Part shown: positions 128 through 42,114 of the stretch, in pieces | Layout of the letters: every line of letters begins with the position of its first letter | How positions within the stretch are numbered: position 1 is the first letter of the stretch | IMG/VR virus record: IMGVR_UViG_3300020129_000172 | Span: 1-42,114 of that record | Strand: one strand, 5' to 3' | Source of the DNA: a virus | Length of the DNA stretch: 42,114 bases | Position numbers and translations under genes: made by a program | Notes under the pieces: generated by a model | The model's input: only the letters and a program-made list of their open reading frames with translations | The model's database searches: none | What the model was told of the DNA's origin: nothing

Positions 128-1360
128 TCCGCCCTGATCAACGACATCACGCACAAGTGCGAAGCCACCGTCACCAATGCGGACGGCAGCACGACGACCG
201 GTCGCCCGATGACGGCCGAGGAGAAAGCGCAGATCGATGCGGTCCTGGCTGAAGGCGCCGCCATCAAAACGAAGATCGATGCGCTGCGGGGCGATGCCGA
301 CTTGCGGACCCGCGTCGAACAGTTGTCGGGCGGTAGCCGTCCGTCCAGCGGTCCGGCGCTGCCTGCCGATCGGCGCTCGATGGGGCAACAGTTCACGCAG
401 GACGTGCAGTTTCAACAGTTCATTCGCCAAGGCGGACACCGCCGCAACGGCGCATGGGCCACGCCGCCGATCGAATGCTTCGGCCCGATGCGCGCGACAA
501 CCTTGACCGAAGATCCGGCCTCGGGCGGCAAGCTGCTCGTGCCGCAGTACCTGCCGGGGATTCTGCCGGTGCTGTTCAAGCGGTTGGTGGTCGCGGACCT
601 GATGGCGTCCGGCACGGCGCTATCGAACGCGATCATCTACATGATTGAGACGGCGTTCACCAATGCCGCCGCGCCGGTCGCGGAAGGCACGGCGAAGCCG
701 GAATCCGCCCTCGTCTTCAGTCAGCACACCGACCCGGTATCGAAGATCGCCCACTGGTTGCCGGTCACTGAGGAACTACTGGAAGACGTCGCCGCGATTC
801 AGTCCTACATCGATGCACGCCTCACGCTCGGCGTGCAGCTGGCCGAGGAAGATCAGTTGCTGAACGGCAACGGCACCGCGCCGAACATCCTCGGCGTGTT
901 GAATCGTCCGGGGTTGGCCACACCGGTTGCACGCAATGCCGGGGCGACTCCACCGGAGACGAACGTCGATGCCATCCTGCGGCAGATTACCGCGATTGCG
1001 ACGACCGCCTTCGTGTATCCGGACGGCGTCGTGATGAATCCGGCGAACTGGTTCACGGTCGCCACGGCGAAGACGACCTATGGCGAATACATCGGCCCCG
1101 GTCCCTTCTCCGCGCTGCCGACGGCGTCGGTGTGGGGCACGCCGGTTGTCGTCACGCCGTCGATCGCCGTCAACACCGCCCTCGTCGGCGCCTTCGGCAC
1201 GATGTCGCAGGTCTTCCGCAAAGGCGGCCTCCGCATCGAAGCCAGCAACAGCCATCAGGATTTCTTCATCAAGAACCTGGTCGCCATCCGTGCCGAGGAA
1301 CGCCTCGCACTGGCCGTCTATCGTCCGGGTGCCTTCGGCGTCTGCACCGGCCTGAACTAA
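77..1360 (+). CDS. Major capsid protein, HK97 fold (phage capsid family)
   Basis: This 427-residue protein forms the icosahedral shell. Residues 1 to about 90 are a charged helical coiled coil, the usual N-terminal scaffold-like delta domain that the upstream protease removes. The HK97-type core starts near residue 130, with the family pattern SGGKLLVPQYLPGIL, then HWLPVTEELLED, then LVAIRAEERLALAVYRPGAF near the C-terminus. Length and order match the phage_capsid family. It lies directly after portal and protease in the circular genome, as in HK97-type head modules. The start codon overlaps the protease stop. A hairpin follows the stop at 1375-1404 and may set the high capsid dose relative to the genes behind it. 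The cleavage site is not proven; somewhere near residues 95-115 is likely. Confidence 0.95.
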   Translation: MKLAQLETDLAAVATRASALINDITHKCEATVTNADGSTTTGRPMTAEEKAQIDAVLAEGAAIKTKIDALRGDADLRTRVEQLSGGSRPSSGPALPADRRSMGQQFTQDVQFQQFIRQGGHRRNGAWATPPIECFGPMRATTLTEDPASGGKLLVPQYLPGILPVLFKRLVVADLMASGTALSNAIIYMIETAFTNAAAPVAEGTAKPESALVFSQHTDPVSKIAHWLPVTEELLEDVAAIQSYIDARLTLGVQLAEEDQLLNGNGTAPNILGVLNRPGLATPVARNAGATPPETNVDAILRQITAIATTAFVYPDGVVMNPANWFTVATAKTTYGEYIGPGPFSALPTASVWGTPVVVTPSIAVNTALVGAFGTMSQVFRKGGLRIEASNSHQDFFIKNLVAIRAEERLALAVYRPGAFGVCTGLN

Positions 1361-25417: not shown

Positions 25418-26088
25418 CGCGCCAGCCGCTCTGCGAATATCGCGTCTTCAGCCGACGCCACCGGTTTGCCGGAACGCTGGATGCGCTCGGCGTCTGGCAT
25501 GGCGCCGGGGCCCTTCTCGACTACAAGACCGGCGCACCGCGAGACGTCGCGGCCGACTTGCAGACGGCAGCATATCTGGGTGCGCTGGTCGAGATGATCG
25601 AGACCGGCGAGACGCCCGACCTGCTTGTCTTCGATGAACCGTCGCACACCTACACGCTGGACGGCGAGCGGCTGCCGTCGGTGACGCAGATCCTGCAGCG
25701 GGCGGGCGCCATCGACTTCGACCACATCCCGCCGACGATTCGTGAACAGGCTCTGGCACGCGGTACCGCTGTGCATCGGGCCGTTCACTACTTCAACGAG
25801 AACGATCTGGACGTCGACGACTTTCGGTCGTCGTTTCTGGAGTACTGGCCCTACCTCGCCGCGTGGATCAAATTCCTGGACACGTCCGGCTTCCGCTTCG
25901 CCGACCTGTCCGACATCGGATCGACCCGTCACATCCGTCGGTATGCCGTGCAGCTGAAACGCGACGGCACCTTCGGTATCGACCGCTACAACAATCCGAA
26001 CGACTACAGCGAATTTCTAGCACTGCGGAGAGCATTGTTGATTGTCGAACGTCGACGACCATCGGCAACGTACGCGGACATAGCGTGA
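25414..26088 (+). CDS. PD-(D/E)XK nuclease (RecB/Cas4 type) with swapped segment order
   Basis: This is 224 residues from GTG 25414 (GTGA overlap). Residues 9-56 carry the nuclease core: FAGTLD (Asp23), LLDYKTG (Asp36, Lys38) and LQTAAY (Gln50, Tyr54). Residues 73-165 then carry HTYTLDGERLPSVTQIL and ALARGTAVHRAVHYFNE (His121), which in the usual phage family stand at the N-terminus, before the core. The C-terminus RRYAVQLKRDGTFGIDRY, then DYSEFLALRRAL is in its normal place. All catalytic elements are present, but the order is B-A-C instead of A-B-C. It should act as the exonuclease partner of the RecT-like protein if the fold tolerates the swap. Confidence 0.78.
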   Translation: MTRQPLCEYRVFSRRHRFAGTLDALGVWHGAGALLDYKTGAPRDVAADLQTAAYLGALVEMIETGETPDLLVFDEPSHTYTLDGERLPSVTQILQRAGAIDFDHIPPTIREQALARGTAVHRAVHYFNENDLDVDDFRSSFLEYWPYLAAWIKFLDTSGFRFADLSDIGSTRHIRRYAVQLKRDGTFGIDRYNNPNDYSEFLALRRALLIVERRRPSATYADIA

Positions 26089-26090
26089 AC

Positions 26091-26185
26091 GGACATGGGT
26101 GGGCTGGGCGCGGTCGGTCAGTGAAGGCGTGACAGCGCAAGGTTCGGAGCGGACAGGTTCGGCTTGGATCGGCGGGAACGGAAAT
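26091..26185 (+). repeat. Short 5-bp-periodic GGNNN block
   Basis: Between the nuclease stop and the next gene, G occurs at 16 of 19 positions congruent to 1 modulo 5 and at 15 of 19 of the following positions. Examples are GGTTC GGAGC GGACA GGTTC (26141-26160). It is the same pattern as the larger block at 27570-28295 and on the same strand. No gene fits here. Confidence 0.8.
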
Positions 26186-26211: not shown

Positions 26212-27033
26212 ATGAAGAAGAAGGACGACAGCAAAGACGCCATCGATGTACTAGAAGTGACGAAGGGACTCGCCCACGTTTGCATCGTGGGCGAGTCAGG
26301 TGCGGGACTGATTTGCAATCGACTCAGCGAGAAGGCCCGACGCGAACTCCTGATGCCTGCGCCGAAGCGCAACGCCGCCGAGCGCGCAACGCTATTGAAG
26401 CACAAACCGTACGACGAATTCCGAAATTCTCCGTACCGGCTACCGGAGTCGCTGGCGCTGGTGGATGTCAGCGGCGGCATTGGCACACCGATGCCACCGC
26501 CGGGACCAGTGATCGGCGTGCTGTCGGCGTCATTCAAGAAAGCGATGATGACAGCAGCACTCGATCTGCCCAACACGAAGAAGGCCCAGATCGGACGCCT
26601 TGTCTGGGTGCAGGGACTCTACACCGCAATCTACGGCATCCCGCAAATCATGCTCGCACCCGTCCGGTCGGCCGACATGAACCGCACACCGGACATTCGC
26701 TCCCGCGCCATCCTGCCACGGTGGGCGTGTCGACTGCAGATCGAGTTCGTGCAACCGCTGATGAAAGTCAACGCGGTCACGCGCCTGCTTGCTGCAGCCG
26801 GCCTCTTTATCGGCGTCGGTGATTGGCGCAAGGAAAAAGGGTCGGGGACGTTCGGCGGTTTCCGACTGACCGAAGAAGACGATCCGGAATTCCTGGACAT
26901 CGTCAACAACGGCGGCCGCGCCGCGCAACTCGAAGCCCTGTTAGCGCCGGAATCCTACGACGAAGAAACGGCATCGCTGCTCGCATGGTTCGATGAGGAA
27001 ATCGCACGGCGGCAGGGCAAAGGGGTGGCCTGA
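26212..27033 (+). CDS. Conserved recombination-module protein (GDWRKEK family)
   Basis: This is 273 residues from ATG 26212 behind GGAGGAGGA. The pattern GLICNRLSEKARRELL at the front, VIGVLSASFKKAMMTAALD in the middle, and RLQIEFVQPLMKVNAVTRLL with FIGVGDWRKEKGSGTFGGF at the end belongs to a protein family I know from early regions of temperate phages beside RecT and nuclease genes. Its biochemical role is not established to my knowledge. Both flanks of this gene and its partner are the unusual pentamer blocks, so it may act on them, but that is only positional. Confidence 0.7.
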   Translation: MKKKDDSKDAIDVLEVTKGLAHVCIVGESGAGLICNRLSEKARRELLMPAPKRNAAERATLLKHKPYDEFRNSPYRLPESLALVDVSGGIGTPMPPPGPVIGVLSASFKKAMMTAALDLPNTKKAQIGRLVWVQGLYTAIYGIPQIMLAPVRSADMNRTPDIRSRAILPRWACRLQIEFVQPLMKVNAVTRLLAAAGLFIGVGDWRKEKGSGTFGGFRLTEEDDPEFLDIVNNGGRAAQLEALLAPESYDEETASLLAWFDEEIARRQGKGVA

Positions 27034-27551
27034 TGTCACGGCTCACGGAAACGCACGTCGCGTATCTGGTGACCCTCGAAAAGCAGGGACGCACCAGTGC
27101 GGAAGACGTCCTGGCCGATGCGAAGCGGGCCGAGAGTCCGCTTCACGATCTTTACGATTGGGACGTCACCGCCGCCGCTGAAGCGCACTGGCTCGATCGC
27201 ACGCGCGCAATCATCCGGTTGGTGAAGGTCGTCGTCCACACCGAACACCAGACGATCCGACTGCCGCGCTACATCCGCGATCCGGCGCTGCCATCACACG
27301 AACAGGGCTACGCATCGGTCGAATCGCTGCGGCTGGAATCAACGCTCGCGCATCGTGCCCTTGTTACCGAAATGGAACGGGTCACGTCGTCGCTGCGACG
27401 GGCGCGACACATCGCCGTCGGCCTTGGGCTGGAAGACGACGTCGACGATCTGCTCGCGCGCGTGGCAGGCCTTCGTGAGATTTGGACCGAGCGCAGCGCG
27501 CCGCCACCGTCGGATGGCGACACGGCGGCAGCTGCGTCACCAGCAGCGTGA
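27033..27551 (+). CDS. Conserved early phage protein (SPLH..YDWD type)
   Basis: This is 172 residues from ATG 27033 (TGATG overlap). The sequence RTSAEDVLADAKRAESPLHD, then LYDWDVTAAAEAHWLDRTRA and LPRYIRDP is the pattern of an uncharacterised protein usually encoded next to the preceding family. The C-terminal part is helical with a low-complexity tail (PPPSDGDTAAAASPAA). The pair is probably one functional unit of the recombination or replication module. Confidence 0.7.
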   Translation: MSRLTETHVAYLVTLEKQGRTSAEDVLADAKRAESPLHDLYDWDVTAAAEAHWLDRTRAIIRLVKVVVHTEHQTIRLPRYIRDPALPSHEQGYASVESLRLESTLAHRALVTEMERVTSSLRRARHIAVGLGLEDDVDDLLARVAGLREIWTERSAPPPSDGDTAAAASPAA

Positions 27552-27569
27552 AACAGCAAGTGACGTCGC

Positions 27570-28295
27570 GTGGCAGGACGCGGTGGGGCCGAACTTAGGC
27601 AAGGCGCGGAGAGACGGGGTCAGGTCCGATGCGGTTTGGACCGGCATGACAGGGCGCGGCAGGCGCGGCTCGATCCGGTCAGGGAGCGGCATGACATGGT
27701 GGCACGCGGAATGGTGGGGTGTGGATAGGCTCGGCAGGAACGGCGACGACGGGTTACGTCTGGCGCGGTCACGTCTGGCAACACACGGCGGGCAACGCGG
27801 GGCGACGTTGGGACCGGTAACGAAAGACTCGGCACGGCGGGCCACGCGAGGCGAGACGACACGCGGCAACGCTGGATCTGGCGCGGCAGGCGAGGACGGG
27901 CGGGGCTTCGCGGGGCTTCACATGACCGCGATGGACATGACGAGGCGGGCGCGGTAGGGCGTCACCGTGGAATCGCATCGCATGGCGACGAATGGCGGGA
28001 CGCGGCGGGCAAGGTCAGGACAGGCAGGTCTGGAGTTGGCTTTGCCACGACATCGGCAGGCGTCGAAAGGTTGACTGGGCGTGGAATGGACAGGACTGAC
28101 AACGCAACGCGCGGCAGGTTCGGACCGGGTAAGTCATCGGCGAGATATGGCATGGCGCGGCGCGGATCGATCTGGTCGGGCACGGCGTGGCAGGCACGGC
28201 TACACGCGACTGCGCTGCGATTGGCTAGGTTGCGTTTGGTCCGGCGTGACACGGCGGGCGAAGTAAGGCGACACATGGCGTGACGCGGATAGGCA
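27570..28295 (+). repeat. Large non-coding 5-bp-periodic G-rich block (degenerate GGNNN repeat)
   Basis: About 725 bases without a credible gene. G stands at 28 of 30 positions congruent to 3 modulo 5 between 27633 and 27778. The phase then drifts by single bases and the pattern continues, for example TATGG CATGG CGCGG CGCGG (28146-28165) and TCTGG TCGGG CACGG CGTGG (28171-28190). The three bases between GG pairs vary freely, so it is not a simple tandem repeat. In 27661-27720 I count 28 G against 13 C on the + strand. A 5-bp period cannot serve a codon frame; the several open frames on both strands here are by-products of the missing T/A-rich stops. Confidence 0.85.
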
Positions 28296-28302
28296 GGCAA
28301 CG

Positions 28303-29031
28303 ATGATACCGACACTCGATTTCAACGCACCAGATACCGCAAAGGCCGTCGGCAGCGACCTGGCGGATGCGTCGATGACACTCGCGCAGCGGCTGCGTGG
28401 CTGCACCGTGACCGATGCCGTCTCACTCCAGCAAGCCGTCGACGACCGGCAGACCATCGCCGCCACGCTCGACCAGATCGGCCACTACTTCGATCCGCTG
28501 ATTGCGATGGCGCACAAGCTCCACAAGACGTTGTGCGATCGACGGTCCGAAGTCGCGGAACCGCTGAAGCGGGTGGACACGATGCTACGGGCGGCCATCA
28601 GCGCCTACCACGACGACGAGACGAAACGCCGCCAGCTGCTGGAACGCGAAGCCTCCGAACGGCAGCGGAAGGAACAGCAGGACCGGGCCGCAGCGGCAGC
28701 GGCCGACCTGGAAACGTCCGGCGAGCATGCGCTCGCGGCGTCCGTCTTGGAAGAAGCCATCGCGGCCCCGCTACCGGTCGTCGCCTTGCCGGACATCACT
28801 AAGCAGGTCGACGGCCTGAAGTTCCGCCGCCGCTACTGCTGGCGCTATGCCGGGGGGCCGAACACGATCAAGGACACGCCGCCTGCCGTCATCGCGCGGA
28901 CCCACAAGATCGCACCGCGTGACTTCCTGTGCCTTGACGACATCAAGGTGGGCGCATATGCGCGGGCGATGAAGGGCAGCGGATCGATCCCCGGCGTCGA
29001 GTTCTATCACGTCGATGACCCGGTGCGGTGA
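28303..29031 (+). CDS. Conserved early phage protein with coiled coil
   Basis: In this 242-residue protein, residues 40-135 are a long charged helix (HDDETKRRQLLEREASERQR) with the look of an SMC-like coiled coil. The C-terminal part FRRRYCWRY, then KIAPRDFLCLDDIKVGAYAR and AMKGSGSIPGVEFYHVDD is strongly conserved among temperate phages near recombination and replication genes. Function unproven. It starts just after the G-rich repeat block. Confidence 0.72.
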   Translation: MIPTLDFNAPDTAKAVGSDLADASMTLAQRLRGCTVTDAVSLQQAVDDRQTIAATLDQIGHYFDPLIAMAHKLHKTLCDRRSEVAEPLKRVDTMLRAAISAYHDDETKRRQLLEREASERQRKEQQDRAAAAAADLETSGEHALAASVLEEAIAAPLPVVALPDITKQVDGLKFRRRYCWRYAGGPNTIKDTPPAVIARTHKIAPRDFLCLDDIKVGAYARAMKGSGSIPGVEFYHVDDPVR

Positions 29032-29693: not shown

Positions 29694-30338
29694 ATGTCCT
29701 GGCTGAAGATCGACGACCAAATCGCCACCCATCCGAAGATCCTGAAAGCGGGTCCGTCCGCCTCGTGGTTGTGGATCTGCAGCATTGCCTATTCGTCGAA
29801 TCACTTCACCGATGGCTTCATCAGTGATGCCGCGTTGGGGCACCTCGGAATACCGAAGCATGTGCTGAAGCAACTTGTCAGCAGGCTGCTGAAGCAGGCG
29901 TTGTGGGAGCGCGTGAAAGGTGGCTTTCAGGTGCACGATTACCTGCAACATAATCCCTCCGCTGTCGAACGCAGACAGGGGTTAGCGGCGAAGCAAAAGG
30001 CCGGTCAGATCGGTGGTCACCGATCATGGCAACTGCGTCATAAGACAGGGGTTAAGGGACCGAAGCACGCTGCTGAAGCAGACGTCAAGCAGCCTGCTGA
30101 AGCAGACGTCAAGCAGCCTGCTGAACCCCGATCCGATCCGATCCGATCCGATCCGTATAAGAAGGCGGACGCGCCTGCAGCGCGATCCGCCGACACGGTC
30201 CGTGGTACTAACACCGCCGGAAATGGGTCGGCCGGATCGAGACGGGACACTCCAGACGGTGGGCCTGCGGCCCCCGCTTCCGCGCCCGTCGTGCCACCGC
30301 TGTCGCCGGAATTACGGAAACGATTTGGGGTGCCGTGA
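29694..30338 (+). CDS. Replication initiator-like (replisome organizer) protein
   Basis: This is 214 residues from ATG 29694. Residues 1-95 (WLKIDDQIATHPKILKAGPS, ASWLWICSIAYSSN, FTDGFISDAALGHLG, VKGGFQVHDYLQHNPS) match the winged-helix N-terminus of phage replisome-organizer proteins. The middle holds two 8-residue AEADVKQP repeats and a Ser/Asp/Arg stretch, encoded by direct DNA repeats that may be the origin itself, as in lambda O. The C-terminus is proline-rich. A helicase-loader-like gene follows at once. Confidence 0.78.
   Translation: MSWLKIDDQIATHPKILKAGPSASWLWICSIAYSSNHFTDGFISDAALGHLGIPKHVLKQLVSRLLKQALWERVKGGFQVHDYLQHNPSAVERRQGLAAKQKAGQIGGHRSWQLRHKTGVKGPKHAAEADVKQPAEADVKQPAEPRSDPIRSDPYKKADAPAARSADTVRGTNTAGNGSAGSRRDTPDGGPAAPASAPVVPPLSPELRKRFGVP
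29973..30155 (+). repeat. Direct-repeat cluster, probable replication origin inside the initiator gene
   Basis: Three repeat types sit together: AGACAGGGGTTA at 29973-29984 and 30043-30054; a 24-bp unit at 30072-30095 repeated exactly at 30096-30119 with a partial third start; and five tandem ATCCG pentamers at 30131-30155. Iterons inside the initiator gene are the lambda ori arrangement. Only the clustering supports the origin call. Confidence 0.5.
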
Positions 30339-38424: not shown

Positions 38425-38603
38425 CGGAGTCCCGCAAGCCGGTCGGACGGCCGCGACTGGACCGCAAAGATACGACGACCCGGCTCAGTGTCTCGCTGCC
38501 GTCGCGGCAATATGACCGCTTCTATCAGCAGGCCCAGCACGATCGGATCAGCGTCGGCGAAGCCATCCGCCGCCAGCTGCAGGACGACGACGACGAGGCG
38601 TGA
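38421..38603 (+). CDS. Small ribbon-helix-helix / AT-hook-like protein
   Basis: This is 60 residues from ATG 38421 (ATGA). It contains an AT-hook-like GRPRLDRK and then TTTRLSVSLPSRQYDRFYQQ and ISVGEAIRRQLQ, a CopG/Arc-type ribbon-helix-helix layout. It could regulate the methyltransferase whose start overlaps its stop, or assist packaging. Unproven. Confidence 0.65.
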   Translation: MTESRKPVGRPRLDRKDTTTRLSVSLPSRQYDRFYQQAQHDRISVGEAIRRQLQDDDDEA

Positions 38604-39463
38604 TGCATGGGATGGCTCTTTGTGCCGGGATTGGGGGACTGGAACTCGGCGTCGGGTTCGTCCTTGCCGAGTACCGCACCGTCGTGTACGTGGAACGCGA
38701 AGCCTTTGCCGCCGCGCAGCTGGTCGCGCGCATGGCAGCGGGTCAGCTGGCTGCGGCGCCTGTCTGGGACGACGTGCGGACCTTCGACGGCCGACGCTGG
38801 CGTGGCGTCGTGGATTGTGTCACTGCCGGATTCCCCTGCCAGCCGTGGAGTAAAGCCGGACCCGATACCGGCACCGACGATGCCCGCTGGGTCTGGCCGG
38901 ATATCCTCGACCGCATTGGCGAAGTGGGATCCGCGATCGTCTTCTTGGAAAATGTCCCTCCCCTTGTTTCCCGAGGAGGACTGGCCACCGTACTCGGCGG
39001 ACTGGCCGACGGCGGGTACGCTGCGGAATGGGGTTATCTCGCCGCGTCCGCCGTTGGGGCATCCCATGAACGCCTGCGCGTCTTCATCCTGGCCTACCGC
39101 GACGGCCTCCGACTCCGACGACAAGTGGCCGACCCCGGCGAGCCGCGACTACAAGGGCGAGAACGCCAGCGTGCATCTCGATCACGCCAGCGGCCGGAAA
39201 CATCTCGACCAGCTGCCGAACTTCATCGCGTACTGTTTCCCCCTCGCCCCACCGACACCGCCGGGTGGCGTTTCGTCTTCGCCGATCGGCCGGACCTCGC
39301 CCCGGCACTCAGTGCCGCGCATCAACGTCAGCTTTGTGGAATGGCTGATGGGCTTTCCTATCGGCTGGACCGACTCCGGGCTGTCGGCAACGGAGTGGTC
39401 CCGCTACAGGCAGCGTATGCGTTTGTCGCTTTGGCGACTCGCGCAGGCCTGTGGGCAGACTGA
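38603..39463 (+). CDS. C5-cytosine DNA methyltransferase
   Basis: This is 286 residues from ATG 38603 (GTG 38600 possible). Motif I LCAGIGGLELG, motif IV GFPCQPWS (catalytic Cys79), motif VI ENVPPL (Glu116), motif VIII GASHERLRVFILA and the closing RLRAVGNGVVPLQAAYAF (motifs IX-X) are all present. The C-terminal part (DLAPALSA...GMADGLSYRLDR) is normal for one subfamily. The target-recognition region between motifs VIII and IX is Arg-rich and unusually poor in character, and in the +1 frame the same DNA encodes a different methyltransferase-type segment. Its role would be self-protection from host restriction, or supply of modified C. Confidence 0.9.
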   Translation: MHGMALCAGIGGLELGVGFVLAEYRTVVYVEREAFAAAQLVARMAAGQLAAAPVWDDVRTFDGRRWRGVVDCVTAGFPCQPWSKAGPDTGTDDARWVWPDILDRIGEVGSAIVFLENVPPLVSRGGLATVLGGLADGGYAAEWGYLAASAVGASHERLRVFILAYRDGLRLRRQVADPGEPRLQGRERQRASRSRQRPETSRPAAELHRVLFPPRPTDTAGWRFVFADRPDLAPALSAAHQRQLCGMADGLSYRLDRLRAVGNGVVPLQAAYAFVALATRAGLWAD

Positions 39464-41082: not shown

Positions 41083-42067
41083 CTACGCGCACCTCGTCGC
41101 CTTCGCCTTGGAACATCCATGGGCGATTACGCCACCGATGCGGGCGTTGATTGCCGATATCCTGGCTCGTCGACTGGCCGGCCTCGACGCCGACGACGCG
41201 GCCATTGCCGCCGCGATCGAAGCCCGCGCCACGCGCGATGTGCCGGTGCCGACCGGCGGATCGGTGGCGGTCATTCCGGTGCAAGGCGTCATCTCGCCGC
41301 GCATGAACCTGTTCACTGAAACGTCCGGCGGCACGACCTTCGAAGCCCTCACCAAGCAGCTGCAGGCGACCGTCAGTGACCCGAACGTCAAGACGATCGT
41401 CTTCGACGTCGACAGTCCCGGCGGCAACGTCGCAGGCGCCTCGGAGTTCGCCCGCGAAGTCCTCCGCGCCCGCACGGTAAAGCCGGTCATCGCCGTGGCC
41501 AATCACCTGATGGCGTCGGCGGCGTACTGGGCGATGTCGGGGGCCACGGAACTCATCGCGTCCCCGTCGGCGCTGGCCGGGGCCGTCGGGGTCTACACGA
41601 TCCACGACGACATCAGCGCGGCGCTCGGCGCACTGGGCGTCAAGCGCGAAGTCTTCTCGGCTGGCAAGTACAAAGCCGAAGGCGTCGACGGTGGACCGCT
41701 GTCCGACGACGCCAAGGCGCATGTGCAGGGACTGGTCGATGGCGCGTACGGCCGCATGGTCGGCGACATCGCCAAAGGACGCGGCATCCGACCGGCCGAC
41801 GTCCGCGACGGCTATGGACAAGGCCGCACGCTGGGGGCGGAACAAGCCCTCAGTGCCGGTCTGATCGATCGCATTGCCACGCTCCACGAAACGCTCGCGC
41901 GTGTCATGCAGCCGACGACCGCTGTCGCCGGATCGACACGCGCTGCGGTTGACGCCCCACCTGTACACACGGACTCGCGATCCAACTATGTACACGTCGA
42001 GCGCGACCCGGCTTTGATTGAGTACGAACGACGAGCCTTCGTACTCCAACTGAGTACCTTCAAATGA
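41066..42067 (+). CDS. S49 (SppA/ClpP-fold) head maturation protease
   Basis: In this 333-residue protein, GSVAVIPVQGVISPRMNLF begins the ClpP-fold core, VFDVDSPGGNVAG is the oxyanion region, NHLMASAAYWAM holds the catalytic Ser151, and FSAGKYKAEG holds Lys203. The 52-residue Ser-Lys spacing equals that of B. subtilis SppA. It removes the capsid delta domain in the prohead. The last 27 codons are repeated at the left end of the window because the genome is circular, and the stop overlaps the capsid start. Confidence 0.93.
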   Translation: MPTPRNYAHLVAFALEHPWAITPPMRALIADILARRLAGLDADDAAIAAAIEARATRDVPVPTGGSVAVIPVQGVISPRMNLFTETSGGTTFEALTKQLQATVSDPNVKTIVFDVDSPGGNVAGASEFAREVLRARTVKPVIAVANHLMASAAYWAMSGATELIASPSALAGAVGVYTIHDDISAALGALGVKREVFSAGKYKAEGVDGGPLSDDAKAHVQGLVDGAYGRMVGDIAKGRGIRPADVRDGYGQGRTLGAEQALSAGLIDRIATLHETLARVMQPTTAVAGSTRAAVDAPPVHTDSRSNYVHVERDPALIEYERRAFVLQLSTFK

Positions 42068-42114
42068 AACTCGCCCAACTCGAAACCGACCTGGCGGCAG
42101 TCGCCACACGCGCG
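41988..42114. repeat. Terminal direct repeat, right copy
   Basis: Exact copy of 1-127. Removing one copy gives a circle of 41,987 bp in which protease and capsid genes are both intact and adjacent. Confidence 0.93.
42064..42114 (+). CDS. Major capsid protein, N-terminal fragment (duplicate of the copy at 77)
   Basis: The first 17 codons (MKLAQLETDLAAVATRA) repeat those at 77-127; the reading frame runs off the contig end. It is not a second gene. Confidence 0.93.
   Translation, partial: MKLAQLETDLAAVATRA

Follow-up and report, generated by a model that had tools for sequence, protein, structure and literature searches.

Five-base-periodic blocks flanking a RAMP-fold gene in a phage genome are very probably guide arrays of a VIPR system

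VIPR systems have a single description, a preprint of 2026 (PMC13142463): they combine a RAMP protein with an accessory gene and with vrRNAs, in which 9-16 YNNGG repeats recognise DNA in the pattern NNxNNxNN. In the Escherichia phage SUSP1 (PDB 36pp; PMC13142463), a RAMP-fold Vipr protein with a GVGDWR glycine loop is encoded in a two-gene unit that has arrays in the same GGY/NN code upstream and downstream on one strand. Here, we analysed all 42,114 nucleotides of the IMG/VR virus record IMGVR_UViG_3300020129_000172 (the window), in which, as an initial annotation of the DNA had observed, two blocks of period 5 (26083-26176 and 27560-28297 as delimited here) bracket a unit of two genes (26212-27033 and 27033-27551), all on the plus strand. 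The window shares with SUSP1 the RAMP-fold protein and its glycine loop, the two-gene unit between same-strand arrays and the intergenic tracts of tandem YNNGG (GGY/NN) repeats on either side of vipr. It also shares the phage-borne location typical of most VIPR loci, the record harboring capsid, portal and terminase genes. We estimate a probability of roughly 0.93 that both blocks encode arrays of vrRNA guides belonging to a VIPR system of the phage. The locus lends independent support, obtained from raw sequence and in a clade far from SUSP1, to a system with a single description.

The periodicity of the smaller block is not in doubt. The G counts of the initial annotation for 26091-26185 hold, with 16, 15, 5, 4 and 4 of 19 positions in the five phases. 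The period-5 G score of this block (14.2; the best 95-base window, at 26076, scores 15.3) was equalled in 0 of 20,000 shuffles of the block. In the rest of the record, none of 7,942 windows of 95 bases matched that score, the maximum being 8.3 on the plus strand and 7.6 on the minus strand. An array hidden Markov model placed the boundaries of the small block at 26083 and 26176 and those of the large one at 27560 and 28297, on the plus strand only, and the unit lists revealed a common unit, [G/C][G/A][not G]NN, mostly GGY+NN. From 26116 on, the upstream array keeps its register for about 12 units, with a short run ahead of a register break near 26112, while the downstream array (738 nt, about 13 guides) stops just ahead of the next start codon at 28303. 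The small block had been regarded as a copy of the large one; it is instead a second stretch of the same code, with the scaffold common to both and the variable letters different. Tandem Repeats Finder detected no CRISPR array (identical repeats with unique contiguous spacers) at the blocks, which consist of degenerate pentamers, and an Rfam search of the window and four relatives returned no match and hence no hammerhead ribozyme.

The gene at 26212-27033 (plus strand) encodes a Vipr protein of 273 residues, in which RAMP-like motifs and the glycine loop GVGDWRKEKGSGTFGGF were recognised. A profile of the family, built from 62 homologues, had SUSP1 Vipr as its sole PDB match (36pp_D, E 2e-5, hmmsearch), and hhalign aligned the window and SUSP1 proteins with 96% probability over the glycine-loop region. 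An AlphaFold2 model of the window protein (pLDDT 86.5) had chains of Csm3/Cas7, the backbone of type III CRISPR-Cas complexes, as its top structural matches (Foldseek E 3e-5; VIA Z 9.8), with VIA Z about 9 over 136-157 residues for the common predicted fold; the glycine loop is presumably common to both as well. Unlike a Csm3/Cas7 locus, however, the window combines only ~10% identity with an absence of CRISPR repeats and of other cas genes (a Pfam scan of ten window proteins found no cas family), and its period is 5 with a gapped guide rather than 6 with a contiguous one. No Pfam family matched the gene, and weak matches to the PADLOC model Cas7_IIIg were obtained for 6 of the 62 family members (best E 0.006). 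Neither vipr nor the second gene gave a match in scans of bacterial genomes, which relied on short exact peptides and are not evidence of absence.

Linkage between array and vipr is general among relatives. In three relatives from the viral collection (86, 74 and 48% identical), the second gene is followed closely by a same-strand array of ~670-1190 nt. A second scan, based on vipr alone, yielded 80 loci, of which 74 carry an array that fits this consensus on the plus strand and 0 on the minus strand. Five of the remaining six carry arrays with a GTY scaffold, and the last contig stops 223 nt past the gene. The converse, gene-blind scan for ten exact GGYNN units returned at least 120 stretches; among the 80 loci listed, a Vipr homologue is present in 58, every one on the strand of the array and at most 708 nt away. 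The profile search found no Vipr in the other 22 listed loci (the set without Vipr within L183-L249 in our locus numbering), several of which are short single arrays or cut contigs; some could be stand-alone guides or go with Vipr proteins of other types. Because array and Vipr homologue co-occur on one strand and near each other, we regard the locus as a VIPR locus. The connection of the blocks to the gene unit proposed in the initial annotation is thus real in both search directions, and always on one strand, but it concerns the first gene rather than the pair: in 44 of 66 loci a homologue of the second gene immediately follows vipr, and in 20 none was detected. The additional upstream array that makes the blocks flank the unit occurs in only roughly a fifth to a quarter of relatives.

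The second gene (27033-27551, plus strand) is a candidate vipr-accessory (vap) gene encoding 172 residues of no recognised family, without a Pfam or PDB match; it corresponds to PHROG 15946, the function of which is listed there as unknown. In AT-rich relatives, the array comes directly after vipr.

The same arrays occur in cultured phages. The Gordonia phages UmaThurman, Pipp and ODay and the Mycobacterium phage Saal encode Vipr proteins ~30% identical to that of the window, next to same-strand GGY/NN arrays of about 160-310 nt with GGCA junctions that are not recognised in their records, and tests in laboratory strains are therefore feasible. The locus of Saal, a cultured M. smegmatis phage, has a vipr homologue and an upstream array only (L173, 3609-3856) and constitutes a tractable laboratory system. 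Annotated coding sequences overlap the guide arrays at L172 4583-4906 (UmaThurman gp40) and L175 4569-4838 (Pipp gp43), and are probably spurious.

Within the arrays, the five-base runs are broken by units of 4 bases, mostly GGCG (244 occurrences) or GGCA (230), and successive breaks are most commonly 9-11 full units apart. In the window, an example is the GGCA at 27658-27661, and further junctions lie at 27733, 27787, 27836, 27885, 27944, 28004, 28189 and 28253, all on the plus strand. The 4-nt GGC[A/G] junction would mark the start and end of each guide, giving guides of about 9-12 units. Comparison of 12 close array pairs revealed that the five positions of the unit differ at 1.3, 5.3 and 7.2% (scaffold) and at 12.0 and 12.2% (NN), so that GGY is conserved and NN hypervariable, as described for VIPR. 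Arrays with a GTYNN scaffold retain the GGCG junction, and whole cassettes recur in a different order among GTY contigs, for example c2 c3 c4 c5 c6 in L070 and c2 c6 c4 c3 c5 in L080. These arrays are found in AT-richer relatives (L070 3110-3700, L076 5710-6330, L080 720-1330 and L083 6790-7480), several of them with a G+C-rich leader resembling GGGGCGGTGCGCCGCCCC ahead of the array. As a tentative proposal, to which we give somewhat less than even odds, the array may be a chain of interchangeable cassettes, delimited by GGC[A/G] even with GTY, that are gained, duplicated and reordered whole between related phages and aimed by these at one another's capsid, protease and vipr genes, constituting guide exchange between phages without Cas1. 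The 4-nt guide junction, the cassette shuffling and the GTY scaffold are features of anatomy that go beyond the main text of the preprint (PMC13142463), although the 'staggered arrays' named there may be of this architecture.

The GTY arrays also bear on whether the blocks act at the level of DNA, as a packaging or partition signal or a G-quadruplex array unrelated to any guide RNA. GG every five bases could give two-layer quadruplexes, yet the register survives substitutions by C and A, and the GTY variants cannot form quadruplexes. Given in addition the strict same-strand linkage to a RAMP gene and the non-random matches of NN described below, we consider a DNA-level signal extremely improbable. 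The readings as a G-quadruplex array, a TRAP-type binding array and a RecT footprint were dropped; a search with the RecT protein returned no relatives.

By analogy with the work on SUSP1 (PMC13142463), the locus may be expressed as RNA, form a ribonucleoprotein and silence targets. The array would be transcribed in the direction of vipr, and Vipr subunits would coat the RNA such that each GGY is held by protein and the two variable bases are exposed. The NN pairs of about 9-12 consecutive units would recognise target DNA in the pattern NNxNNxNN, one base being passed over in each unit, and genes of competing phages would be repressed upon binding. The guides of this clade would lie head to tail, set off by the 4-nt GGC[A/G] junction and without a structured tail.

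This mechanism predicts matches with a skip of one base, and we searched for them using guides of at least 7 units, drawn from 516 distinct modules, against 2.0 Mb of these phages with arrays masked. With the 1-nt skip, 20, 13 and 3 guides reached scores of 15, 16 and 17, respectively, compared to 4, 2 and 0 with skip 0, 6, 2 and 0 with skip 2, and 8, 3 and 0 with skip 3. Reversed guides gave 7, 2 and 1, one shuffle run 10, 7 and 1, and eight further shuffles of unit order means near 5.8, 2.1 and 0.4. Among unambiguous matches scoring at least 15, 8 of 14 were on the sense strand and in frame with the skip at the wobble base, versus 3 of 28 in shuffles. Recognition with a 1-nt skip, often at the wobble base, is thus supported statistically, by computation only, for the clade. 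For the window guides taken alone the evidence is modest, as a score of 16 is expected by chance for about 1 guide in 200.

Individual matches point to genes of related phages. The window guide at 27683-27732 (plus strand; GC.AT.AT.GG.GC.AT.GG.GT.TA.TC) has an in-frame match over its first 8 units to the gene for the head maturation protease in the phage at L042, and that at 28139-28188 (plus strand; GA.AT.AT.GC.GC.TC.CT.CG.AC.GT) matches a ParB-like gene of the phage at L002 in frame at 18 of 20 letters. Conversely, two sites in the window are predicted targets of relatives: 956-997 (plus strand) in the major capsid gene, matched in frame by guide L042:2031 at 24 of 28 letters, and 26986-27012 (plus strand) in vipr itself, matched in frame by guide L003:11341 at 18 of 18 letters over nine units. 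The latter guide matches the vipr gene of L002 equally well (18 of 18 letters, nine units). The predicted targeting of the window and L042 phages is therefore reciprocal, guide 27683 of the window being directed at the protease gene of the L042 phage and the L042 guide at the capsid gene of the window. The 16-letter pattern of guide 27683 occurs in 26 contigs, only two of which, from one phage species, match in the protease gene; the remaining ones look like chance. In the four cases examined, the homologue in the guide-bearing phage itself matches the guide less well than the gene of the relative, making guide acquisition and self-sparing testable. The variable letters appear to be directed against related phages that compete with the bearer, namely at their genes for capsid, protease and Vipr.

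A rival to the guide reading is an RNA of structural or sponge function that the RAMP protein coats, the filament itself being the product and NN drifting freely without target information. A coat-binding site alone would likewise predict a scaffold more constrained than NN, and most guides lack a good target in the 2 Mb searched. Nevertheless, the excess of the 1-nt skip over other skips and shuffles, the codon frame, the guide boundaries, the matches to genes of relatives where the homologue of the guide bearer is mismatched, and the SUSP1 experiments (PMC13142463) are all contrary to such an RNA, which we consider very unlikely.

Several observations stand against the assignment to VIPR as guide arrays. 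The second gene fails to align with SUSP1 vap1; cassettes abut via GGC[A/G] alone, lacking the invariable 3' tail of the SUSP1 clade (type II); the scaffold of the window is looser than in most relatives; and exact 20-letter targets sought for two window guides, including that of the small block, were not found. Because the tail is absent, membership in type II is not claimed. Further unlike SUSP1, the Vipr protein of the window has 273 residues versus 195, and its downstream array is continuous, with ~13 guides, 4-nt junctions and no structured tail. In favour of the assignment, the same array model run on SUSP1 places one block ahead of vipr/vap and two behind, the layout seen in the window. 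The loose units of the window probably count as guide units, since comparable looseness in an L003 guide leaves 9 of 10 units matched to the target.

That same guide is relevant to the status of the small block, which could be the decayed remnant of an array, only the downstream array being functional. The block is short, with a register break and looser units, its guide has no exact target, and the close relatives L002-L004 lack an upstream block. On the other hand, twelve of its units remain in register, upstream arrays are present in the minority of relatives given above and also in SUSP1, and looseness did not prevent the L003 guide from fitting its target. We consider a remnant unlikely, with odds of perhaps one in four, and retain the reading of both blocks as guide arrays.

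Apart from the VIPR locus, an exact 127-bp direct terminal repeat (1-127 and 41988-42114) indicates that the record probably represents the whole of a circularly permuted phage genome. At 30063-30155, a gene for a putative replication initiator contains 2.6 copies of a 24-bp tandem repeat as well as CCGAT x5.6, which may mark an origin. Lastly, the region 35331-36221 matches the beta-glucosyl-HMC-alpha-glucosyltransferase family (PHROG 842) and has a DNA methyltransferase gene (38600-39463) nearby, suggesting that the phage may modify its own DNA.
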